Origin: a virus
Reading direction: 5' to 3' (one strand)
Length of the DNA: 29,888 nt
IMG/VR virus record: IMGVR_UViG_3300044949_002752
Location: 1 to 29,888 of that record
Position 1 is the first letter of the stretch. Every line of letters begins with the position of its first letter. Position numbers and translations under genes: made by a program. Positions 4,016 to 29,733 of this stretch are shown here, in pieces. Under the pieces are notes generated by a model that was not told the origin of the DNA, made no database searches, and saw only the letters and a list, made by a program, of their open reading frames with translations.

Positions 4016-4645
4016 TCAGCGGCAATACCGCGCGCGCTGCTGCCGCCAAAAATCAAGCTGCGCTGTGCCGGGGATATCCGTGTCGTCGCCGCGCTGAAAA
4101 ACCAATGCGTGCGCAACTGGTACGCCGTAAACTTGGCCGCCTGCTTCACTAAATACGCCGGACATGTAGTAATCAACTGGCTGATCGTGCTTTTTTTCAA
4201 GCGCAAGCAACTTTTCACAGCCGCGCGCGTTGACGACGTAACCGTGGCTGCCCCACATATTGCCGGTAATCCGAACTAAATGCTCGCTGACATGAGTCAC
4301 GCGCGCCCGCGTTGAGTGCAGGTGCCACAAATCCCAGTCTGTAGGTAATTCAGCGGCGGTCGTGGCGAAAATAGACGCAAAGTCAGCCGGAAACACGACA
4401 TCGTCTTCAAAAACGGCCATCAACTCTAATTTTTCGACCAGGCAATGCCGCCAGAGCGCCTTGTGACTGTCTAAACAACCAGCGTGTCCAAGTGCTAGCG
4501 GTGGGTAGGGAGATTTGTCGTACAAAATAGCGGACCAGCGCTTTACCGGCCAGCAAACCCGCGCAAACTCTGCTTTTGCCAGCTTCCAACGATCTGCGCG
4601 CGCGTCTAAATTGACACAAAAAGCCGAAAGCTGCTGGTAATTCAC
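4016..4645 (-). CDS. Glycosyltransferase family 25 (LPS-type)
   Basis: The 209-residue product matches the glycosyltransferase 25 family, whose members add sugars such as galactose to lipopolysaccharide or proteins. It has the N-terminal FCVNLDARADRW (about residues 9-20), which matches the family's INLD-x-R-x-R start. It also has FEDDVVF with the acidic EDD at 80-82, typical of the nucleotide-sugar/metal site, and GSHGYVVN and DYYM further on. Length is near that of a compact family domain. The start is a GTG at 4645 just after the stop of the HAD gene (two-base gap), so the two are probably coupled. Acceptor and donor sugars cannot be read from sequence. Third positions look less GC-biased than in the structural genes, hinting at a separate origin. 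Confidence 0.88.
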   Translation of the reverse strand: MNYQQLSAFCVNLDARADRWKLAKAEFARVCWPVKRWSAILYDKSPYPPLALGHAGCLDSHKALWRHCLVEKLELMAVFEDDVVFPADFASIFATTAAELPTDWDLWHLHSTRARVTHVSEHLVRITGNMWGSHGYVVNARGCEKLLALEKKHDQPVDYYMSGVFSEAGGQVYGVPVAHALVFQRGDDTDIPGTAQLDFWRQQRARYCR

Positions 4646-7030: not shown

Positions 7031-8062
7031 TTAAAGAATTTTGGCGGCGACCAGGCAACCACGGGCCACAGCGTGTAGTGGATCCTTGGCGTGCCGGACT
7101 TCCTTAATCGCAATCGGAAAGCCGTTCTCGACGAGTTTCTCGTGGAACCGCGGCACAAAGCCACGGGCCTGGCTGGTACCACCGGCGATAACCACCGGGA
7201 GGGGATTCTTGAACTTGGGAAGCAGCTTGTGGTCAGTCATGGCCGCGGCGAGCTGCTTGGTCGTGTAGTCGATGAGCCGCTCGTAGTAGCTCGAGACGGC
7301 CGAGAGAATCGCGCTGGCGTTGGGCTGGCCGAGCGTGAACGCACCGTGTTCTTTCTCCGCCTGAACAACCGAGTCCGGTTCGCCGGTCGCCACAGCGGTC
7401 ATCCGGTCGATCCAATCGCCGCTCTTGGTGGTTGAAAACATCACCGTGGGCTCGCCGTTGAGCATCACGCAGCAGTTGACCATTCCAGCCCCGCAGGAAA
7501 GCGCCAACCCGGTGTAGTCATCGTGTTCCAGCTCCGAGTAGCACAGCGCCTCGGCTTCGTTGATGGCGCGAGCTTCGTAGCCGCACTCGCCGAGAATCTG
7601 CTTGATGACGTCTTCGTGGTAACCGACATCAAAATCCTCGTCTTCTTGGTCTACAGGCTGCGCGGGAATACAGAACACGATCTTCTCGCCAAACGGATCT
7701 GCCTGCCCGGCGACTTCTTTAAGAATGTAGGCGAGCACACGCTGCGCTGCTTTTTCCTTTACGCTGACCACGCCCTTGTGCATGGGCCGCTTCGCCGAAT
7801 CATTGCGCTCAATGGCCTTCTCAATGGCGTCTTTGCCCAGAATAATAAAACTGCCGCCCTCGTCCTTCACAAAAACACGACCCGACAAGCCCTTCTCGAT
7901 CATCTTGTTGGCTATAGGCGTCGTCGCCTTGATCACGTAGAACGCGTCGCGGAAATCTTTGTACTCAACCAGGCCGACCTGAGTCGTGCTGGTGGTCGAG
8001 TTTTCACGGGCGTCTTGCGCCAGAACAATGAACGAAGTGCCTACGTCGAGCCCCTTGGCCAT
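7031..8062 (-). CDS. Actin/Hsp70-superfamily ATPase (ParM-like)
   Basis: The 343-residue product has the actin-ATPase motifs in the right order. Phosphate-1 is KGLDVGTSFIVLAQ (3-16), connect-1 is INEAEALCYSE (167-177), phosphate-2 is LALSCGAGMVNCCVM (186-200), the adenosine motif is VVIAGGTSQARGF (290-302), and connect-2 is DPLHAVARGCLVAA (327-340). Length fits a single actin-like domain such as ParM or MamK, not Hsp70. Phosphate-2 lacks the usual leading aspartate (LSCGAG instead of DxGxG), so ATP turnover may differ. Roles known for phage and plasmid actins are DNA segregation and positioning; that role here is inference. The ATG has a GGGAG site nine bases upstream. Confidence 0.87.
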   Translation of the reverse strand: MAKGLDVGTSFIVLAQDARENSTTSTTQVGLVEYKDFRDAFYVIKATTPIANKMIEKGLSGRVFVKDEGGSFIILGKDAIEKAIERNDSAKRPMHKGVVSVKEKAAQRVLAYILKEVAGQADPFGEKIVFCIPAQPVDQEDEDFDVGYHEDVIKQILGECGYEARAINEAEALCYSELEHDDYTGLALSCGAGMVNCCVMLNGEPTVMFSTTKSGDWIDRMTAVATGEPDSVVQAEKEHGAFTLGQPNASAILSAVSSYYERLIDYTTKQLAAAMTDHKLLPKFKNPLPVVIAGGTSQARGFVPRFHEKLVENGFPIAIKEVRHAKDPLHAVARGCLVAAKIL

Positions 8063-8394: not shown

Positions 8395-8803
8395 CTGGTT
8401 GCCACACTGCGTTAGGGTCTACAGCGCCCATTGCCACAACAGGCAGTGTCTCGCCGATCGGTTGGTGAAGTTTGATGGCCTCGAGAAGCTCGGGGCTGGC
8501 GTTGCCTACGAACTCTGGCAGGTCGTCGATCCAAACATCGATCTTTACGCCACGGGCTGCTGCCGTCGCGCGCTTTGGCCGGTGATCTGTAAAAATGAGG
8601 CCCGCCAGCAGCTGCATCGTCGGCGCGCCAATTACGTCCGGAACGAGCGCGCGGTTTTCGAAGGTGCTGTGCCGCGCCGTGACAACCCACACAGTGTGCC
8701 CGCGCTGCACGCACAGCCGCACAAACAACCGCCAGAACTCGATGTCCGCGGTGAACGAGCAGTCAAAATCTAGCGCAATCGCAATAGCGCGATAAGGCGT
8801 CAT
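8384..8803 (-). CDS. HAD-like phosphatase
   Basis: The 139-residue product shows the HAD signature: IAIALDFDCSFT with Asp12 and Asp14 (motif I, DxD), VWVVTAR at about 38-44 (motif II threonine), and KIDVWIDDLPEF near 86-97 (motif IV acidic pair). There is no large cap domain, so it is a minimal HAD fold, as in phage-encoded polynucleotide or nucleotide phosphatases. The substrate is unknown. Its ATG overlaps the TGA of the methyltransferase gene by ATGA, and no separate ribosome site is visible, so translation is probably coupled. Confidence 0.8.
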   Translation of the reverse strand: MTPYRAIAIALDFDCSFTADIEFWRLFVRLCVQRGHTVWVVTARHSTFENRALVPDVIGAPTMQLLAGLIFTDHRPKRATAAARGVKIDVWIDDLPEFVGNASPELLEAIKLHQPIGETLPVVAMGAVDPNAVWQPDAQ

Positions 8804-9330
8804 GCCGTGTAAAACCAGCTAGGGTAGTAATCATTAGTGACAATTTCCGGCGGCCGTCCGAAAAACTCGCACACGGCGGTTTTCACGCCGAACACGCCTT
8901 CCTGGCGCACACCATCCATAAAATCGTGGCCACACAGCGTGCCACCCGGGCGCACTTTCGGCGCCCAAGCAGCCAGATCGCGTTTGACGGATTCGTAGCT
9001 GTGGTCGCCATCGAGGTACACCAAGTCAAAGAAGTGATCTGGGAAGTTCGCCGCGGCGGCCGGAGATAGTTCGCGCCAGATAATCGCGCGGGGCGTAAAC
9101 ACCTCGGCGACGCGCATGGCCTGCGCAAAGCACTCCTCATGCTCGGCATCCGAAAGGTTGCACTGGTCCTGATAATTCTCTAGATGCCGCCAGGCGTCGA
9201 TCATGTGCAGCTGTCCGCTCCAGGTGCAGAGCAAACGCGCGGAAAACTCTCCTTTCCAAACACCGACCTCGGCCGCGATCGTGTAGCCGCGCGCGGTCAT
9301 CCATAGTCCAAGCTCGTCGCGCGAGGTCAT
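8800..9330 (-). CDS. SAM-dependent methyltransferase (class I)
   Basis: The 176-residue product has a Rossmann-type methyltransferase core. IAAEVGVWKGEFSARLL (18-34) is the SAM-binding motif I, HMIDAWRHL carries the acidic residue after strand 2, FDLVYLDGDHSYESVKRDL is the motif IV region, and WAPKVRPGGTLCGHDF closes the fold. The DGDHSYE pattern is characteristic of the Methyltransf_24 group, often found with glycan, antibiotic or surface-polymer genes. Target unknown. The ATG follows an AGGAAAG ribosome site. It is in line with a small membrane gene upstream and a HAD phosphatase downstream. Confidence 0.87.
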   Translation of the reverse strand: MTSRDELGLWMTARGYTIAAEVGVWKGEFSARLLCTWSGQLHMIDAWRHLENYQDQCNLSDAEHEECFAQAMRVAEVFTPRAIIWRELSPAAAANFPDHFFDLVYLDGDHSYESVKRDLAAWAPKVRPGGTLCGHDFMDGVRQEGVFGVKTAVCEFFGRPPEIVTNDYYPSWFYTA

Positions 9331-9331
9331 G

Positions 9332-9598
9332 CTACTTTCCTGAATGCAGATCGCCCATGTATTTCACTGCTACATATGTACCCAAAAACGCGCCGAGCGC
9401 CAGGGGAATCAAATACCACGGATTGTGCAAATAATTCATCACGCCATAAGCGCCCAAACTGTACAGCACCGAGCTAATCAAACTGGCGGCCATGGCCTGT
9501 TTGCGGCTGACACACAACACGTAAAGCGCGTAGAGAATGTCAAAAAACACGTACACAACGAACACTGTAGCGGCTGTCGTCCAGCTGAAGTCGTTCAT
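9332..9598 (-). CDS. Three-pass small membrane protein
   Basis: The 88-residue product has hydrophobic segments at about residues 8-29, 33-54 and 60-78, with little outside the membrane. The ATG at 9598 overlaps the end of the upstream nuclease-like gene region (its TGA lies two bases before). An extension of 22 residues would run inside that gene and is less likely. The last segment (LIPLALGAFLGTYVAVKY) resembles small transporter-like or UPF0316-type membrane proteins, but this is too weak to name. No function assigned. Confidence 0.7.
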   Translation of the reverse strand: MNDFSWTTAATVFVVYVFFDILYALYVLCVSRKQAMAASLISSVLYSLGAYGVMNYLHNPWYLIPLALGAFLGTYVAVKYMGDLHSGK

Positions 9599-9600
9599 GG

Positions 9601-10077
9601 TCAACTCGCGGTATTTCGGTGACGGGCCGCGTTGTTCTGGAGCGACCACCAGGCGTCGCGCCACTCGCTGTCGTTGTGAAATGTCATCGAGGTTTTGTTG
9701 AAGTCGATATAGGTCGCCGGAACCACAAAGGTTCGACGGTACACAAAATCGACAAAAACCATCGCGTCAAACTGATCTGCCGTGTATTTCACGGCAGGGC
9801 GGGCGTGATACCCGGCCGAAGTAGACAACCCGGCTTTGTTTCGCAGGATTGGAAAACGACAACTTTTTTCGGTGACAAACTGCCGGTTTGGTTTGTTGCG
9901 AGTTTTGACCTGCAGCCGATTAATGCGGCCCAGATGGTCCGAGATCAGGTCATAGCCGTTGTCGAGTAGCGGAAAAGCAGGCACCATTCCGTTGCGCAGC
10001 AATTCTGCTGCGACGTACTGCACGCCTGCGGCGCCAACTGCCTGGGCAGTAACGCGCAGCTGATCATCCCTAATCAT
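9601..10077 (-). CDS. PD-(D/E)XK-type endonuclease-like protein
   Basis: The 158-residue product carries AAELLRNGMVPAFPLLDNGYDLISDHLGRINRLQVKTR at about residues 23-60. An early helix is followed by GYDLI (active-site aspartate), a turn, then RLQVKT (Q-x-K), the arrangement of the PD-(D/E)XK fold found in group I intron endonuclease-like and Holliday-resolvase-like proteins. DAMVFVDFVYRRTFVVPA (about 104-121) matches the later strand pair. A GAGG ribosome site lies nine bases before the ATG. A nuclease in DNA processing is likely by family. Specificity is unknown. Confidence 0.78.
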   Translation of the reverse strand: MIRDDQLRVTAQAVGAAGVQYVAAELLRNGMVPAFPLLDNGYDLISDHLGRINRLQVKTRNKPNRQFVTEKSCRFPILRNKAGLSTSAGYHARPAVKYTADQFDAMVFVDFVYRRTFVVPATYIDFNKTSMTFHNDSEWRDAWWSLQNNAARHRNTAS

Positions 10078-10127: not shown

Positions 10128-10247
10128 TCACCCCTCGTCGTCGTTGCGCATGTCCTTGTAGGTCAGCATGCCCATGCACACAGCGGCAGTGGCAATAAGA
10201 AGCGCCAGACTCAAAATCAGCGCAGCGCAGGCAATTTCAAACAGCAT
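10128..10247 (-). CDS. 39-residue membrane peptide
   Basis: A short frame starting at ATG 10247 with an AGGAG ribosome site encodes one hydrophobic segment (about residues 2-27: LFEIACAALILSLALLIATAAV and onward), then TYKDMRNDDEG with an acidic end. This looks like a single-pass phage membrane peptide. Its ribosome site overlaps the TAG of the upstream 94-residue frame, which supports both being translated. No function can be assigned. Confidence 0.6.
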   Translation of the reverse strand: MLFEIACAALILSLALLIATAAVCMGMLTYKDMRNDDEG

Positions 10248-10256
10248 GGCAAACTC

Positions 10257-10541
10257 CTAGATAAGGCGGGCTGGGCGCTGGCAGCAGGACCGCTCGCGTC
10301 CTGCTTTTGCTCGTGTTGCGTTGGGGCGAAGGAGGCGGTCGGACGCCGTTGAAAACCCAGCAACCAGCGTTAAGCGCGCAAAGATATCTTTGCGCAGCAT
10401 CCCGGCACCCCGGCTGTCCGATGGGGTACAGATGCGGCCCGGTTCGGAAGACCGCTCCCGCAAGTACTCTTTTCGACTCGGCGCGTCCGCATGGAGCGAC
10501 TGCAGCCGATATCGAATCGCCTCCCTGCGCCTCTCCCGCAT
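10257..10541 (-). CDS. Hypothetical arginine-rich 94-residue protein
   Basis: The ATG at 10541 has GGAGG five bases upstream, and the frame closes at a TAG inside the ribosome site of the next gene. Both favour a real gene. The product is very rich in arginine, has no recognisable domain and no membrane segment, and would bind nucleic acid by charge alone. Against it, the DNA holds two strong inverted repeats (10376-10395 and 10283-10305), so this stretch could instead be a structured non-coding RNA or a control region. Codons for Lys-Asp-Ile-Phe make up the 10380-10391 palindrome core. Confidence 0.45.
   Translation of the reverse strand: MRERRREAIRYRLQSLHADAPSRKEYLRERSSEPGRICTPSDSRGAGMLRKDIFARLTLVAGFSTASDRLLRPNATRAKAGRERSCCQRPARLI
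10376..10395. repeat. Perfect 20-base palindrome with AAAGATATCTTT core
   Basis: The sequence GCGC-AAAGATATCTTT-GCGC is perfectly self-complementary over 20 bases with no loop, which suits a dimeric protein-binding site better than a terminator. The 14-base core CAAAGATATCTTTG recurs exactly in the inverted repeat at 22641-22684. It lies inside the reading frame of the 94-residue protein and about 130 bases upstream of the 39-residue membrane gene. Confidence 0.6.
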
Positions 10542-10607
10542 ATGCCCTCCGTGGGGGTCTAAATTGCTGTAAAAAGTTTATGGTGCACTGCCAAAAGGCG
10601 CAAGAGA

Positions 10608-12155
10608 TCACAACAGTGGCGAGTCTTTCAGCAGTGGATTTGGGTGTACAAAATGCTCACGATGACTCGGGCACAGAGCGCATTGCGGAATGTCGCGCGT
10701 TGCAAAAAACGCATGAAGAATTTCGTCGCTGGCTCCAGGCTGGCAGGGCGCATACTGACGAAACTGGTCCCAAGCCTCAACTGTCTCGAGTCGCAGTTTC
10801 TTTTCAAATAAACTGTAGTAAGCCAACGCCGGGCACTTCCAAAGCTGCCCCTGATAAAGCTGTGTACATGTTTTTTGCATGCACACGTGATAGGCTGCCG
10901 CCGGTTCAGACTGGTACGGCAGCGGCTGCCCATCCGCAACGCGATACTGCCGCATCCAACCCTGGTGAGAATGCCGCAGGTTATACCGAAGTTTTGGGTA
11001 CTCTTTGCGCCAACTATAAACCGTTTCCAGGCCCGCATTAAATTGCTGAACATATTCTGGCGAGTCGCCGTGTTTAGAGATCTCTAAACAACAGTCGGTC
11101 GCGACGAGCACCGCTGGTAGCTCAGGGTGACGGTCTAAAAAAAACGCATTGCTGACCAGCATCAGCTGCGAGTCAGGCCAGTACTCGCGAGCTAATCGAA
11201 CGTGCGAAACCAGCTCCGGGTTTAACGTTGGTTCGCCACCTAATAACGCAAAAACACGAGGGCGTAACCGATCCGCCCACAACTCGTATTCCTGCCGCGC
11301 CTGCTCCACTGACAACAAACCGCCCAGCCGAAAATTTGAATAATGCGAACACTGCTGGCACGACAAATTACAGCCGTGCGCGACGTGATACTCAAGAGAC
11401 GCAATAGATAATAGCGACGGCATCTCAATCGCGGCGGGAGCCGCAAATACAGCAGCCAGGGCGTCAACCTGCCGCAATTTTTTCCACCACCACTGCACGC
11501 GTTGTCGCGCCGGAACATGTACTTCATGGACATGATGCTGGTGAATGTTTGATGGAAAAGAAACGTGATAACTGAGCAGCGACACCGAAAAAACACGCGG
11601 AGTATGAAACAACACGCATTCCGCCCGCGCCGGATGTTTATTCTCGCGCGCATACGGCGCCAGCCGTTCGTCAAGTAAGTGCGCGCGCACCAATTCCGCG
11701 GCAAAATCGCGCGTAATCAAATACGCCACCGTGCCCCAGTCATTATTTCCACGCGCATGCCACTGCGGCGTCTGATTCACCTGACTATTTACAAGTTGAA
11801 TGCAGTCCCACGAAACCGGAACGCGATCCAAAAACTCGCGCAGTGTAAAATTCCAACGCTCACAAATCGACAAATCCACATCGTCTTCAAGTATTAGCGC
11901 AACAGGCGCGTCACTTTCGTTTAAATAACGCTGCAATGTTAAAAGATGTGCAAAAGTGCACGCTATTTCGGGCAGTGTTAAACCAGAGTTTTCTGGCAAT
12001 ACGCACCGCGACAAAAGATCAGGCACGGCTAAAACACCGGCCACACGCGTAGCTGTCGCGTTATATTGCGCCAGCTGTGCTTCTAAACAGCTGCGCCGCT
12101 CTACATCTTTATCAAGGTTGATGTAGAAAATTGGTACTGTTGCAAACGGCGACAT
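10608..12155 (-). CDS. GT25 glycosyltransferase fused to radical SAM domain
   Basis: This 515-residue protein has two halves. Residues 1-215 form a glycosyltransferase 25 domain: IFYINLDKDVERR (9-21), EIACTFAHLLTLQRYL (63-78), ALILEDDVDLS with EDD at 90-92, and DWGTVAYLITRDFAAELV (139-156). Residues about 250-500 form a radical SAM domain: CNLSCQQC gives the CxxxCxxC iron-sulfur motif (Cys262, Cys266, Cys269), and LLGGEPTLNPE (304-314) is the SAM-binding GGE region. C-terminal cysteines at 425, 430, 441, 471, 492 and 495 suggest an auxiliary cluster (SPASM-like). The combination suggests glycan transfer plus a radical modification, but the substrate is unknown. Composition is less GC-rich than its neighbours. 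Three bases separate it from the upstream gene. Confidence 0.9.
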   Translation of the reverse strand: MSPFATVPIFYINLDKDVERRSCLEAQLAQYNATATRVAGVLAVPDLLSRCVLPENSGLTLPEIACTFAHLLTLQRYLNESDAPVALILEDDVDLSICERWNFTLREFLDRVPVSWDCIQLVNSQVNQTPQWHARGNNDWGTVAYLITRDFAAELVRAHLLDERLAPYARENKHPARAECVLFHTPRVFSVSLLSYHVSFPSNIHQHHVHEVHVPARQRVQWWWKKLRQVDALAAVFAAPAAIEMPSLLSIASLEYHVAHGCNLSCQQCSHYSNFRLGGLLSVEQARQEYELWADRLRPRVFALLGGEPTLNPELVSHVRLAREYWPDSQLMLVSNAFFLDRHPELPAVLVATDCCLEISKHGDSPEYVQQFNAGLETVYSWRKEYPKLRYNLRHSHQGWMRQYRVADGQPLPYQSEPAAAYHVCMQKTCTQLYQGQLWKCPALAYYSLFEKKLRLETVEAWDQFRQYAPCQPGASDEILHAFFATRDIPQCALCPSHREHFVHPNPLLKDSPLL

Positions 12156-12158
12156 AGT

Positions 12159-12806
12159 TTAATTTTCTTTTTGCAGCAAGTCTTCTGTTAAAGCGCCCAT
12201 TTTGCGAAGCGTACGCCCGGCAGCCGACCACCCTTTGAGAAACGCGCGATCTTCTCGGCCGTATAGCTCGTGACCGAAAAGCCAGCCTACCAGCAACACG
12301 ACGTAAGGCGCCAGACACGCTTCGCCGTGCGCCCGGTCGGTCAGGCCAAATACGTAGACAATATCTCGCATCTTCTCGAGCGGCATGTCGCGCTCGTGAG
12401 TGAGACAAAGCTTCATGGCCGTCTCCTCGTCGAAGGCCCAGCCCTTGGGTGGCTCGGAACCTTTCGTGTCCACGGCGACCTGTCCGCCGAGCAGATGACA
12501 ATCTACGCCGTTGTCACCGGCAAACTTGTTCTGGTTGCGCAGCTCGCGACGCGTCACAAAGGCGTTGAAACCACCCGCGCCCAGAAAGTTGCCCCACTTC
12601 GAGAACGCGGCTTCTACTCCCATGCCGACGTACTGGTTCTCGCCGCGTTCCTGCTCGCGCAAAGCAAGCTGGTCGGGGCTGCCGGTAAAGATCTTTGAGC
12701 GCCCCACAGGCAGCTTGGCCTGCTCTGCGTGATGCGCTACCAGTTCGCGTTCTTCCTGCGTAAACTCGACCGCAATTGTTCCGTATCGGCACGCCGTTGC
12801 CGCCAT
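12159..12806 (-). CDS. Candidate PD-(D/E)XK nuclease-like protein
   Basis: The 215-residue product contains NKFAGDNGVDCHLLGGQVAVDTKG at about residues 92-115. An aspartate in a strand, a hairpin, then VDTK (D-x-K) match the core of the PD-(D/E)XK nuclease fold, and EAAFSKWGNFLG upstream could supply the helical acidic residue. No close family is recognised, so the assignment rests on this motif alone. The ATG at 12806 has an excellent AGGAGG site seven bases upstream, and a sigma70-like promoter lies 43-70 bases upstream, making it one of the few genes here with its own visible promoter. Confidence 0.75.
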   Translation of the reverse strand: MAATACRYGTIAVEFTQEERELVAHHAEQAKLPVGRSKIFTGSPDQLALREQERGENQYVGMGVEAAFSKWGNFLGAGGFNAFVTRRELRNQNKFAGDNGVDCHLLGGQVAVDTKGSEPPKGWAFDEETAMKLCLTHERDMPLEKMRDIVYVFGLTDRAHGEACLAPYVVLLVGWLFGHELYGREDRAFLKGWSAAGRTLRKMGALTEDLLQKEN

Positions 12807-14844: not shown

Positions 14845-15245
14845 GTTTCGTCGTCCTTGTCTGCTGCGTCTTGTTGTCCAGCCCGTACGACGTCCTTGTC
14901 GTTGTGGTGCGTGCTGAACTCGGTAATTACAGAGTCTTCTACACCCTCGAAACGGTGCCACATGCCCGGTGGAATGTGGAAGGCCATGTCGGGCGTCAGA
15001 GTAATCTGCGCCGCATGGCCGACATCCTCGTCCCAGCCGTAGGTCAGAATGATTTTACCAGACTCGAGATACATCACCTCGTCCTTCACCCGGTGGTGGT
15101 GAAAAGAGCAAGATTTGCCCTTCTTGACGTGGAGCTTCTTGCCGCAGTACCGGCCGTTGTAGATCCAGTCCTCGTGGCCCCAAGACTTTTCCACGTAAAC
15201 GCGCTGCTCGACGTTAAGAATGAACCGGGCGGCGGGTGCGACCAT
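14841..15245 (-). CDS. Cupin-domain protein
   Basis: The 134-residue product has a complete cupin motif 1, G(X)5HXH(X)4E(X)6G, spanning Gly43 to Gly63 with His49, His51 and Glu56 as metal ligands. It also has a matching motif 2 around IPPGMWHRF (91-99) with His97. It most resembles the mannose-6-phosphate isomerase type II cupin domain (WGHEDWI near residue 22 also fits), which would link it to sugar-nucleotide metabolism, though small cupins have many activities. The ATG at 15245 has GGAGG five bases upstream; a TTG four codons earlier is inside that ribosome site and is rejected. It is coupled to the Ala/Gly-rich gene downstream. Confidence 0.88.
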   Translation of the reverse strand: MVAPAARFILNVEQRVYVEKSWGHEDWIYNGRYCGKKLHVKKGKSCSFHHHRVKDEVMYLESGKIILTYGWDEDVGHAAQITLTPDMAFHIPPGMWHRFEGVEDSVITEFSTHHNDKDVVRAGQQDAADKDDET

Positions 15246-15985: not shown

Positions 15986-15997
15986 AAAGATATTTAT
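15986..15997. promoter_or_regulatory. AAAGATATTTAT variant of the recurring element
   Basis: An imperfect copy of the AAAGATATCT element overlaps the stop of the sulfotransferase-like gene and ends 10 bases before the start of the zinc-ribbon gene. On the minus strand it reads ATAAATATCTTTGAGG, running straight into the ribosome site. Compare the copies at 17334 and 20903, which also flank starts. Confidence 0.35.
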
Positions 15998-16605
15998 GCC
16001 TGTCGTACCTGAACAAGATTAAGCGCGGCCGCCCGTTGTTCAGGCGTTGGCGAAATACTGGTGAAACAAATGAGCCGCTCAATCTCCGCTTCCGGCTGCG
16101 ACAGAAGATCGTAAAAACCTATCGTAAGCGTCTTTGCTGCGTGCGGCTCGAGGTCTGCGTTACGTTTTTCAAGCATGGCCGCAAAAGAACGCTGCGTGAT
16201 TTCTACAGGCCAACCAAAATGACGATGCGCTGAGGCGACTGACTCTTCTACCGGGCGCTCCGTGCGCACAAATAACACGTCGCCCCAAGCCTCTACTAGC
16301 TCGGGCACCAGCAGGCAGAGCAGCGGATGCTTGCCGCCAAAAACACGGTTGGCATCAGTGCGCCGCCGCATCTGCGCCCAGTCGCGCAGAAGTGCGACAC
16401 GGGCATCGCGCTCGATTAACGGCGCTAGGTCCGGCTCTGAGAAACATCGGCGGCAAATGTCAACAAGCTGCCGCGCCTCGAAATATCTGTGCTCTGGTAT
16501 TTCGTACAGGCTATTGCCCATGCAAACGCCGAGTTCGTGCAGCACGCCTGCCGTAACTGACGTGCCGCTGCGAAACTGGCCGAGCACAGCGATGATCGGC
16601 GGCAT
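15994..16605 (-). CDS. Sulfotransferase-like P-loop protein
   Basis: The 203-residue product begins with IIAVLGQFRSGTSVTAGVLHELGV, a PAPS-binding loop (the RSGTS pattern) of the sulfotransferase family. FGGKHPLLCLLVPEL and VLFVRTERPVEESVASAHRHFGW match the central region and the 3'-phosphate-binding R...S motif. Family members transfer sulfate from PAPS to sugars, proteins or small molecules. The size is slightly short for a full enzyme, and some phage homologues have unknown activity. ATG 16605 is chosen over an upstream TTG; no strong ribosome site is visible. The neighbours include Ala/Gly-rich and zinc-ribbon genes, not a clear glycan cluster. Confidence 0.83.
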   Translation of the reverse strand: MPPIIAVLGQFRSGTSVTAGVLHELGVCMGNSLYEIPEHRYFEARQLVDICRRCFSEPDLAPLIERDARVALLRDWAQMRRRTDANRVFGGKHPLLCLLVPELVEAWGDVLFVRTERPVEESVASAHRHFGWPVEITQRSFAAMLEKRNADLEPHAAKTLTIGFYDLLSQPEAEIERLICFTSISPTPEQRAAALNLVQVRQA

Positions 16606-16633
16606 ACGCAAACCAGCCGAGAAGTTTTGCGGT

Positions 16634-17341: not shown

Positions 17342-17977
17342 TTAGCGCTGCGGCATCACGGACTGGCCAGCCTGCTGCGCGCGCTGCACAATCGGCGTGG
17401 GCGGTTTTGGGTTACCACCGGTATGGAACATTGCGCCCACCGTCAACGGATTTCGAACCGCGGCGTTCACCGTCGCCTGTACAGGGCTTTTCATAAACGT
17501 CGCGCCCGCACGAACCGGCACGACTTTCTGAATACCCCGAGAGAGCGCCTGCTCGGCCTGCGCGCCCAGCCGCCCAGCTGCGGCACCACCGGCTGAACCG
17601 AGCGCGCGCCCGGCAGTGACAGCGCCGCGGCCCGCCACGTGAAGCCCGGTCTGCACGGCGCCACGGGCTGCTTGCGGCAACAGCGTGCTGGCGCCCGCCG
17701 ACGCCCCGGCGCGCATCAGACCCCCGCCGAGGCTCTTCAAGCCGCCGGTAATCGCCCCGCCACCAACCAGGCTCAGGCCTGTAGAGGCCACGTTGCCGAG
17801 CGCGCCCAGATAGTTCCCCGAGCGCAGCGAGTTGTAGGTGTCGTAAATGCCCGTCGGCACACCCGTCCAAGGGTTCGAGTAAAGGGCCATGTCGGCAAGA
17901 ATGCCGCGGGCCTCTTTCTCGGCAGCCTCCTTGGAGAGCGAGCCGAAGTGCCGACCAAACTCGTATGGCGTGGTCAT
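17342..17977 (-). CDS. Ala/Gly-rich virion-type protein with FEFG-like N-terminus
   Basis: The 211-residue product starts MTTPYEFGRHFGSLSKEAAEKEA. This aligns with the N-terminus of the next gene upstream (FEFGYAVGNLEKQA), sharing E-F-G, the second G, L, K and A. The middle and C-terminal parts (about 55-165) are alanine/glycine-rich and hydrophobic. No enzymatic motif is visible. A short conserved N-terminus followed by low-complexity sequence suggests a targeting peptide for packaging into the head or for processing, as in phages that load internal proteins; this is inference. GGAGGG precedes the ATG. Confidence 0.82.
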   Translation of the reverse strand: MTTPYEFGRHFGSLSKEAAEKEARGILADMALYSNPWTGVPTGIYDTYNSLRSGNYLGALGNVASTGLSLVGGGAITGGLKSLGGGLMRAGASAGASTLLPQAARGAVQTGLHVAGRGAVTAGRALGSAGGAAAGRLGAQAEQALSRGIQKVVPVRAGATFMKSPVQATVNAAVRNPLTVGAMFHTGGNPKPPTPIVQRAQQAGQSVMPQR

Positions 17978-17999
17978 GCCTAGTCCCTCCGAGAAATGG

Positions 18000-18659
18000 T
18001 TACTTGTTCTTCCGCCAGTTCTCGAAGTTCGTCTGCATCTTCTTGCCCGCGTCGACCGTCTTGTTGGCGACGGTCTTCGCGGTCGCGGTGGCCTTGCCAG
18101 CCATCTGCTTGGTCTTGTCCATCACGGTCTGGGCAGCGTCGCCCACCATGCCCGCCTGCTTGCCCGCGTACGAAGCTGGGCCCATCGCCTTGTGTGCGCC
18201 CATCAGACCGCCAATTGCGCCCACCCCGCCGCCGACCAGCTGCGCGGGAATTTGATATTTCTGCGGCAGCAAACGAGAAACACTATTGCCGAGTCCCATG
18301 CCAACAGCGGTGCCTACACCGGCGCCAGCGCCGTAACCAACACCGCGCCCGGCGGCCTCGACTTTGTTGCCCTTGCCCGCCAAGAGACCATGCAAAAGAC
18401 CGCCATAGCCTGCTCCGGCAAGCATCGTCTCAGCGCCCGGAAAAGCGCGCGACACATCGCCAGCCACAGTCTTCACGCCCTGACCAGCCATGCCCGCGAG
18501 GCGCTTGCCAGTCTCGAGCGTCTGTCGCGCGGCATCACGGAACGGCGCGCCTTGAACACCCTTTCCGGCAATCGTGGCCGGAAGATTACCCGCCAGCGTG
18601 AAATTTACAGCCTGCTTCTCAAGATTGCCGACAGCGTAACCAAATTCGAAGGCGTTCAT
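18000..18659 (-). CDS. Ala/Gly-rich virion-type protein with FEFG N-terminus
   Basis: The 219-residue product begins MNAFEFGYAVGNLEKQAVNF, the clearest copy of the motif shared with the downstream gene. The centre contains long glycine-rich hydrophobic stretches (about 80-130 and 140-160) and the C-terminus is a lysine-rich helical region with MDKTKQMAGKATATAKTVANKT-like heptads (about 180-205). No known domain. The ATG has a strong AAGGAG site six bases upstream. A 22-base gap separates it from the downstream gene, so the two are probably expressed together. Confidence 0.83.
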   Translation of the reverse strand: MNAFEFGYAVGNLEKQAVNFTLAGNLPATIAGKGVQGAPFRDAARQTLETGKRLAGMAGQGVKTVAGDVSRAFPGAETMLAGAGYGGLLHGLLAGKGNKVEAAGRGVGYGAGAGVGTAVGMGLGNSVSRLLPQKYQIPAQLVGGGVGAIGGLMGAHKAMGPASYAGKQAGMVGDAAQTVMDKTKQMAGKATATAKTVANKTVDAGKKMQTNFENWRKNK

Positions 18660-27520: not shown

Positions 27521-28375
27521 TTAATACGAGCAAGACCCGTTGTCGACATTGGCTGCCGGGTCGTAATTTGTGCCGAGCGGGTCTGTGCAGCCCTCAACGA
27601 TCGCCAAGGGCACGACGTGGCGCACCAGTGAGCTAAGTTCTGCCGCAGGCGGCGTGAACGGCCCCGTGTAGACCGCCATGCCCTTTACGATGCGTAGGTC
27701 ATCCAGGTAGCCGATCAGGTTTCGATAATCGCCGGGGACGTCAGCCGCAGTGCCAATCCAGCACGACGCGCCCAGCAAGCTGTAACCGTCTACATCGGCG
27801 CTGCCTTCCTGGATGCCGTTCACAAACAAGCGCAGCGTGTTGCCGCGCCGCGTGGCTGCCACGTGCGTCCAGGTGCTCAGCGCCACAGCGCTGGTGCCGC
27901 CCGCTACGGCCTGATTAAGATTGTTGTTGCTAGACATGTACGCGCCCCACTTGCTGGTAGTCGCGTCATACCACAGCGCAAACCCCGTGGTACCGCCGGA
28001 GTCGCGCGTGTCGACGAGCACAGACAAGTCACCGCTCGGCGCAGCTATCGGATACACCCAGGCTTCTACAGTGAAATCGCCAGCGCCAAAGGCAAACTCG
28101 GAACCCAGTGCCTCCGCTGCCATGTAGGTGCCTTCGGTGTCGGCAAACTCAGCAGCGCCGCCGGAAGCCGTTCCAGGCGCGCCGCTGCCAACGCCGAAGG
28201 TCGCATCGCCGAAAGCAGAGACCGCGTGATCGCTGGGACTGCTGTCCGCCAGGTTGCCATTGAAATGCAGTAGCAGCGCGGACTCGGCGAGAATAATCTC
28301 ACCGCCGCGGGCAACAGCTTTTAAGCCCGTGGCGCCCAGATACGCGCGCTGAATGATATCAAGGCCCAGTTTCAT
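27521..28375 (-). CDS. LamG-domain tail protein with Cys-rich C-terminal motif
   Basis: The 284-residue product has an N-terminal tail-fibre-like start, then a concanavalin-A/LamG fold at about 32-245 (ALLLHFNGNLADSS, FTVEAWVYP, GFALWYD, WTHVAATRRGNTLRLFVNG, YLDDLRIVKG). It ends with GCTDPLGTNYDP and ANVDNGSCSY, the two-cysteine GCTD/NYDP/DNGSC motif common in secreted marine and freshwater proteins. LamG domains bind sugars, so the protein could attach virions to host polysaccharide. The ATG overlaps the TGA of the collagen-like gene. Confidence 0.86.
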   Translation of the reverse strand: MKLGLDIIQRAYLGATGLKAVARGGEIILAESALLLHFNGNLADSSPSDHAVSAFGDATFGVGSGAPGTASGGAAEFADTEGTYMAAEALGSEFAFGAGDFTVEAWVYPIAAPSGDLSVLVDTRDSGGTTGFALWYDATTSKWGAYMSSNNNLNQAVAGGTSAVALSTWTHVAATRRGNTLRLFVNGIQEGSADVDGYSLLGASCWIGTAADVPGDYRNLIGYLDDLRIVKGMAVYTGPFTPPAAELSSLVRHVVPLAIVEGCTDPLGTNYDPAANVDNGSCSY

Positions 28376-29733
28376 CAGGCGTCCGGTACGATGAGATAGA
28401 GCGTATTGGAATTCTTCACGACCGTCGCGTCATAGTCTGCCTGCGACAGCGCCTCGATATTCGTGATCTGCACAAACGAACTCATGTCGTTGGGGTTGGT
28501 ACTCACGACAGTCGCAGCGGGTGCGCCAGGCACCATCAGCTCCCAGTAATCCGGTCCCTCGGGTACGGTGCCTGGATCAATCAGCCCGGCGACTGCTTGA
28601 ATACAGACATACAGCGAGCCGGAGAAACTCACAACGTCGTCCACGTTGTAGGCGCCATAAGTTTCAGGGTCGGCCCATTCACCGCGCCAGTTCAAACCCG
28701 CAGGTCCGCTCGGCCCCGTGGGACCCGTTGCGCCTGTTGGCCCCTCTGGACCCGTTGCGCCTGTCGGTCCACCAGCTGGTCCTGTTGGGCCTGTCGCGCC
28801 TGGCGAGGCAAGCAAATACCAGTTGTTTGAATCTGGCGGATAACCCGCGCCGCCAATGAACGTGTGCATGACCCAGGTTGCGCCGTTGTATTCCACAGCG
28901 TCGCCCGGACTGTACGTTACGCCGTTGTTATACGCGCCTAAAAGCGTGAACGGCGCAGGACCCGTGGGACCTTCAGGACCCGTGGGGCCAGTAGCGCCCG
29001 CGTCACCCGTGAGGTCATATACCAGCTGCCAGTAGTTGGGGTCAAAGTCCGGTGCGTAGAGCCCTGAGTAGGGACTGATCGCCTCGTAGAGTGCAGAGTT
29101 GTAAAGCCACAAGTCGCCCTGCTGCACCGTCACGCCTGTTTCCCATAGTCCCCGCAACGGAGAGTCTGCGCCTTGTGCGCCGGTAGGGCCCGTGGGGCCT
29201 TCAGGGCCGGTTGGGCCAGTTGGTCCGCCTGCTGGACCTGTTGCGCCTGTCGCGCCAGTTGCGCCTGTTGGACCCGTGGCGCCTGTCGTTCCAATGCCCG
29301 TGGGTCCGGTGACACCAGTTACGCCAGTCGGGCCCGTAGCGCCAGTTACGCCAACCGGGCCCGTGGGACCACTTGGACCACCGGCTGGACCGATGGGCCC
29401 TGTCGCGCCGCGAGGACCGGTGGGGCCAATCACGCCTGTTACGCCACGCGGACCAGTCGGACCACGGGCGCCAGACGGGCCACTCGGACCCGTAACGCCT
29501 GGTGCGCCTGCAGGGCCCGTAACACCAGTGGCGCCCTGATAGAACGCGCCGCCGTCCTCGGGCACAAACGCGATGACCGAGCCGTCTGCCTTGCCGATGT
29601 AAAGCTTCTCTTCAGCTTCGCCAAAGGCTAGCTCGCCCCGCTTGAGCTTGAGGGGCGCGCCGTCGACCGCGTTGTCGGCTTTGCGACGCTTGTTCCAGAG
29701 CTTGATGATCCGAAAAATGCGGGTGATAGCCAC
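28375..29733 (-). CDS. Collagen-like tail fibre protein
   Basis: The 452-residue product starts [51 protein letters not shown], the usual fibre N-terminus that attaches to the tail. It then carries Gly-X-Y collagen-like triplets (mostly GPTGPTG, GVTGPTG) over about residues 67-187, again near 245-258 and 310-348. Small beta domains such as [26 protein letters not shown] and [26 protein letters not shown] (carbohydrate-binding-like W-x-x-G units) lie between them. Collagen triplets form stiff trimeric fibres. The start is a GTG with GAGGT eight bases upstream. Confidence 0.87.
29165..29535 (-). repeat. Gly-X-Y coding triplet repeat
   Basis: The DNA that encodes the main collagen-like stretch is a 9-base-period repeat of GGN-CCN-ACN triplets on the minus strand, with shorter blocks near 28700-28800 and 28955-29010. 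Copies vary at third positions. The repetitive DNA can slip or recombine, changing fibre length. Confidence 0.7.

Follow-up and report, generated by a model that had tools for sequence, protein, structure and literature searches.

The 29,888-bp stretch of viral DNA analyzed here (the window) contains a single intact minus-strand frame, from an ATG at 12155 to a stop at 10608, whose 515-amino-acid product joins a family 25 glycosyltransferase (GT25) to a radical SAM enzyme. This locus raises the question of whether the union is genuine and, if it is, what one chain with these two domains might do. The preferred reading, to which we give about an even chance, is that a large tailed phage carries, as a moron, a bifunctional enzyme for tailoring glycans, whose GT25 half transfers a sugar and whose radical SAM half oxidizes a sugar to a keto-sugar. 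The features discussed are listed in Table 1.

Table 1. Positions in the window of the fusion gene, its domains and motifs, the segment that carries it, and neighboring genes.
Feature	Position	Strand	Evidence
Inserted segment with fusion gene, ~1.64 kb	10558..12197	-	~83 bp in L252; lowest GC3 of the genes tabulated
Fusion gene, GT25 + twitch radical SAM, 515 aa	10608..12155	-	Open frame; both halves above Pfam cut-off; identical frame in L003
GT25 domain, residues 1-238	11442..12155	-	PF01755; phrog_2835 3.6e-37; conserved NLD..R + EDD; fold matches
EDD motif, residues 90-92, GT25 metal/UDP-sugar site	11880..11888	-	Invariant in 6-sequence alignment
Twitch radical SAM domain, residues 239-515	10611..11441	-	PF04055; SpeY by PDB profile and structure
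CxxxCxxC (C262, C266, C269), predicted SAM-binding [4Fe-4S] ligands	11349..11372	-	25/25 relatives
GGEP, residues 306-309, predicted SAM methionine binding	11229..11240	-	Invariant in 25 relatives
C425 + C441, putative auxiliary-cluster cysteines 1-2	10833..10883	-	25/25 relatives
C492-x2-C495, putative auxiliary-cluster cysteines 3-4	10671..10682	-	25/25 relatives
Second, stand-alone GT25	4016..4645	-	PF01755 4.7e-18; about 31-35% identity to N-half of prophage GT25-sulfotransferase
Methyltransf_24 methyltransferase, possible further tailoring enzyme	8800..9330	-	PF13578 6.3e-17
Sulfotransferase	15994..16611	-	PF13469; about 32-37% identity to 25+ prophage loci, C-half of GT25-sulfotransferase
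Collagen-like tail fiber, candidate acceptor	28375..29733	-	PF01391 1.7e-18; CBM5/12; Phage_tail_C

Both halves score above the curated Pfam cut-offs. Glyco_transf_25 (PF01755) matches residues 8 to 97 (6.8e-9; 36.3 versus 24 bits), Radical_SAM (PF04055) matches residues 258 to 352 (4.9e-9; 37 versus 29.5 bits), and phrog_2835 (glucosyltransferase) covers residues 7 to 239. Together with the position of EDD and the intact C262-x3-C266-x2-C269 and GGEP motifs, these matches bear out the original prediction, made from the letters alone, of a GT25 domain with EDD at residues 90 to 92 and a radical SAM domain with CxxxCxxC and GGE. The GT25 half can be aligned to phage GT25 proteins until approximately residue 238, and stand-alone radical SAM relatives start at approximately residue 245, which leaves almost no linker between the two domains. 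Alignments mixing both halves misplaced GT25 rows, and the full-length model was built on alignment A6, which accounts for its modest confidence; it resolves the two expected domains and leaves the joint itself (residues 231 to 245) at low confidence. Where the stand-alone relatives begin, residue 245 is encoded by an ATG (window 11423) that lacks a strong ribosome site upstream but from which the radical SAM half might still be expressed separately.

The radical SAM half looks like the SpeY/BtrN twitch-dehydrogenase type, with catalysis judged from fold and context. CxxxCxxC, GGE and a partial TIM barrel place it in the radical SAM superfamily. When 25 diverse relatives are aligned, seven cysteines prove invariant, namely, the three of CxxxCxxC and C425, C441, C492 and C495. 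The extra C-terminal cysteines noticed originally are therefore real, and the cluster cysteines, whose loss from close homologues had been named as damaging to the prediction, are kept throughout. H271, H362 and W382 are also invariant, and C430 is conserved in 21 of the 25 relatives, with Ala or Asn in the other four. The cysteine pattern is that of a twitch domain, with one predicted auxiliary cluster held by four Cys ligands, and the four-Cys site (C..C...CxxC) of the SpeY/BtrN twitch dehydrogenases is present in every relative. BtrN performs two-electron oxidation of an alcohol with an auxiliary cluster that has four Cys ligands, whereas the MoaA cluster has an open iron site (PMC9012708).

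Structural comparison points the same way. The profile of alignment A8 matched SpeY (1.5e-17; the name is taken from the PDB title) and BtrN (2.4e-5) in the PDB. A separate model of the radical SAM half, also from A8 (pLDDT 91.7, pTM 0.89), matched SpeY with Z 22.1 and 2.8 Å over 245 of 277 residues, followed by BtrN (Z 14.0) and the remainder at Z ≤13; identity to SpeY is only 17 to 19%. Other twitch enzymes catalyze different chemistry, and fold likeness alone is no proof of reaction. The original suggestion of a radical SAM enzyme with auxiliary clusters acting on peptides, tRNA or sugars can thus be kept for its auxiliary-cluster site and narrowed to the SpeY/BtrN type. Two other assignments were rejected: a SPASM-domain maturase, as the seven-cysteine two-cluster motif is absent and there are only four invariant cysteines beyond CxxxCxxC, and viperin, as NF038283 scores 26.7 bits against a cut-off of 180.

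The GT25 half has a GT-A fold, a profile match above the cut-off, and invariant EDD and N-terminal NLD..R motifs, as expected of GT25 members. Its nearest folds are human COLGALT1 (9evk; Z 16.4), Mimivirus R655 (Z 16.4) and beta-1,4-GalT (8xlz; Z 16.3). In a tree with long branches, built from phage and prophage GT25s only, it groups with cyanophage-type GT25s (support 100/99), apart from planctomycete prophage GT25s; the second GT25 of the window groups with the latter. The radical SAM half belongs to a clade of planctomycete and prophage sequences (98/100) that is separate from the cyanophage clade. The trees of both halves show that they are separate lineages and that the fusion is of chimeric ancestry. 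Elsewhere in the window, 7031-8062 encodes a Volactin-family actin-like protein (PF25216, 7.5e-60), and two proteins encoded within 17342-18659 have similar N termini (MNAFEFGYAVGNLEKQA and MTTPYEFGRHFGSLSKEA), which may serve as a signal for processing or sorting.

Relatives of the radical SAM half at 55 to 60% identity are found in Pirellulaceae planctomycetes (32 loci in one search and 46 of 241 genomes of the family in another) and in IMG/VR contigs. Judged by their gene content, the Pirellulaceae loci look like prophages: GpA-type terminase, lambda-type portal, capsid and tail tape-measure genes occur in G004, the sole genome examined upstream. Their cassette begins with a tape measure gene, followed by genes for a 263-aa protein, a serine-rich protein, a 185-aa protein and a GT25-sulfotransferase fusion, and continues with GT2 genes and genes for a 341-aa protein, the stand-alone radical SAM protein and a Pro-rich protein. 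The serine-rich repeat sequence was seen in L026 and L036, and proteins at that cassette position have 775 to 980 aa. The serine-rich gene and its cassette look like a glycosylated, sulfated phage fiber with its own modification operon. Cassettes are carried, for example, at L026:2-10217, L036:222-10316 and L250:7805-18892, with up to four copies per genome. The same host gene, named P-type ATPase-like on the basis of its L036 sequence, is found near the cassettes in L025, L027, L035, L036, L038, L039 and L041. These loci span several genera, which suggests that the cassettes share an integration site or that the element has been retained and partly domesticated.

Relatives occur in other phages as well. 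In Synechococcus phage S-SCSM2R, as in two relatives from IMG/VR, the genes flanking the radical SAM gene encode a DegT aminotransferase (PF01041, 1.8e-17, tested in S-SCSM2R; a short form) and a GT25. The successive genes in S-SCSM2R (L002:11408-15075), L077 and L078 encode the DegT protein, a SpeY-like radical SAM protein, a GT25, a 2OG oxygenase and an annotated inosamine amidinotransferase, a row that resembles aminocyclitol-type chemistry within a cyanophage glycan cluster. Marine phages (L064:1518-7227, L065 to L068 and L071) carry two radical SAM paralogues of the SpeY-like family, the second of which is followed by a carbamoyltransferase gene. Thus, in Pirellulaceae prophages, S-SCSM2R-type cyanophages and marine phages, which are separate lineages, the radical SAM relatives keep company with glycosyltransferases and tailoring enzymes.

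From fold and context we infer both activities, the order of the steps, the sugar and the acceptor. With its GT-A fold and EDD metal site, the GT25 half would use a UDP-sugar as donor and add a hexose, probably Gal or Glc, to a phage-made or host surface glycan, most likely on a virion fiber. In the radical SAM half, [4Fe-4S] and SAM would generate the 5'-deoxyadenosyl radical, which would abstract H from a carbinol carbon, either in the transferred sugar or in a neighboring one; the second electron would pass to the four-cysteine auxiliary cluster and leave a keto-sugar, as BtrN does with its own substrate. The sulfotransferase, methyltransferase and second GT25 nearby may decorate the glycan further. 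The two-step modification of a glycan by a single chain, as originally proposed, fits the neighborhoods of both halves, while the glycosylation and oxidation steps themselves are deduced. A more ambitious version of this proposal is tentative and, taken as a whole, doubtful: that the protein is the first single-chain glycosyltransferase-radical SAM sugar dehydrogenase, joined within a phage from a cyanophage-type GT25 and a planctomycete-prophage radical SAM enzyme, placing keto-sugars on virion glycans and belonging to a wider, unstudied SpeY-like phage family.

The virion is the favored target because the prophage cassettes follow a serine-rich fiber-like gene and because the window has fibers, collagen-like and others, together with a sulfotransferase. 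It is unlikely that the enzyme instead modifies a host surface glycan (LPS/O-antigen-like) and so blocks superinfecting phages or phage loss to debris. GT25 is an LPS-biosynthesis family, many cyanophages carry GT25s of this kind, and L252, the closest relative found, has other glycan genes at an adjacent variable site, all of which would suit a host glycan. The position of the prophage cassette directly downstream of tape-measure and serine-rich fiber-like genes points to the virion, though less clearly for the window, which has no serine-rich fiber, adjacent or otherwise.

A glycan-directed bifunctional enzyme could also epimerize or deoxygenate the sugar in a NeoN-like manner, with a cysteine as hydrogen donor. 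C430, which lies near the auxiliary ligand C425 and is kept in most relatives, could be that donor, and the radical SAM epimerase EpeE is among the fold matches (Z about 10.9). This possibility appears quite unlikely, as the Ala or Asn at position 430 in four relatives leaves no invariant donor cysteine besides the cluster ligands, and SpeY scores 8 to 11 Z units above the rival folds. DegT aminotransferases require keto substrates of the kind that a SpeY/BtrN-like enzyme would provide, and the DegT neighbor in cyanophages therefore fits a ketone product.

There is a small chance that the domains were joined by accident and work independently, each on its own substrate, which for the radical SAM half would be a peptide or a nucleotide of the viperin type. 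The halves do differ in ancestry, and viperin and peptide maturase models match weakly; these matches fall far below the curated cut-offs, and radical SAM kin stand repeatedly beside glycosyltransferase genes in separate lineages. Slimmer still is the prospect of DNA-base hypermodification, in which the GT25 half would glycosylate, and the radical SAM half alter, a modified base. TET/TAGT phage clusters do contain radical SAM and carbamoyltransferase genes, and one prophage GT2 matched TAGT weakly (9.9e-6, below the cut-off). The window has no TAGT match, and the nearest solved glycosyltransferase folds use protein-linked or glycan acceptors; a TET_JBP search of 18 fragmentary records gave zero matches, with the control likewise silent.

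That an assembly error or frameshift fused two genes, an idea to which the lack of any other fusion lends some color, is very improbable, given a continuous, linker-free frame with intact motifs in both halves and a second IMG/VR contig (L003) that encodes an identical fusion protein, unless both assemblies carry one error. The alignment of L003 with the window spans 10,776 bp without a gap (99.95% identity), and its five mismatches all lie at 14874-14943, with none within the fusion gene.

The fusion was rare in the scans made. Among 160 viral GT25 frames, the radical SAM fusion occurred in one only, which was the same contig again, and a GT25 fusion like that of the window gene was absent from the remaining viral radical SAM loci. 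The Pirellulaceae radical SAM matches were all confined to residues 231 to 513, with none fused to GT25. These scans were pattern-based samples, and further fusions may exist, but they agree with the original remark that no phage enzyme with this combination is known to have been described. A 588-aa viral fusion at L087:2987-4753 has a C-terminal GT25 and an N-terminal part that is GT4-type-like by eye. Megablast of the whole window against phages gave no match, a plasmid search gave weak partial matches only, and the literature searched yielded neither a GT25-radical SAM fusion nor anything on SpeY. The component families are known; from the searches here, neither the GT25-radical SAM combination nor the occurrence of SpeY-like enzymes in phage glycan cassettes seems to have been described.

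Comparison with L252, a syntenic locus in a contig of 153,669 bp (PhoH is 94% and the next gene 90% identical), indicates how the gene may have arrived. Homology ends at window 12198 and restarts at 10557, and the fusion protein is not encoded elsewhere in the L252 or L253 records. The GC3 values of the two halves (0.50 and 0.56) are the lowest among the tabulated genes, most of which have values of 0.60 to 0.78. Given the empty site and the low GC3, recent acquisition of the gene as a moron is the best reading, and loss from L252 is less likely. The frame at 10237-10611 is doubtful as a gene, yet the stretch is conserved in L252. Opposite window 8800-10077, L252:9479-12066 holds a gene whose 534-aa product ends in Methyltransf_24, together with a gene that is weakly GT9-like, which makes this region a second variable glycan-gene spot.

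SpeY and BtrN come from antibiotic pathways. If the preferred reading is correct, the presence of a SpeY/BtrN-like family in phage glycan cassettes would extend its range to macromolecular glycans, and phages would have an O2-independent chemistry for making unusual sugars on the virion or the surface, which bears on adsorption and evasion. The natural fusion would couple radical chemistry to one specific sugar transfer and so offer a direct handle on the substrate.

Known systems share parts of this design. SpeY (PDB 7WZV/7WZX/7X0B), the nearest solved structure, has the same CxxxCxxC followed by a conserved His and the same twitch C terminus, but it is not fused to GT25. BtrN (PDB 4M7T), a 2-deoxy-scyllo-inosamine dehydrogenase, shares the twitch fold and four-Cys auxiliary cluster; it is a more distant fold match (Z 14 versus 22 for SpeY) and a stand-alone enzyme with a small-molecule substrate. 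In the Pirellulaceae cassettes the operon GT25 is likewise fused to a tailoring enzyme, but the partner is a sulfotransferase, the closely related radical SAM protein stands alone, and the GT25 is of another lineage. In S-SCSM2R the homologous radical SAM (SSCSM2R_306) and GT25 (_307) domains are encoded by adjacent genes, which differ from the fusion in being separate, in reverse order and about 25 to 35% identical. Mimivirus L230 combines a lysyl hydroxylase and a hydroxylysyl glucosyltransferase in one protein (PMC9546862). Like the phage fusion, L230 is a virus protein that couples an oxidative enzyme with a collagen-type sugar transferase, but its partner is a 2OG-Fe lysyl hydroxylase and its acceptor is collagen, whereas the Pfam scan of the fusion protein detected no 2OG-Fe(II) lysyl hydroxylase domain and its C-terminal half is a radical SAM domain.
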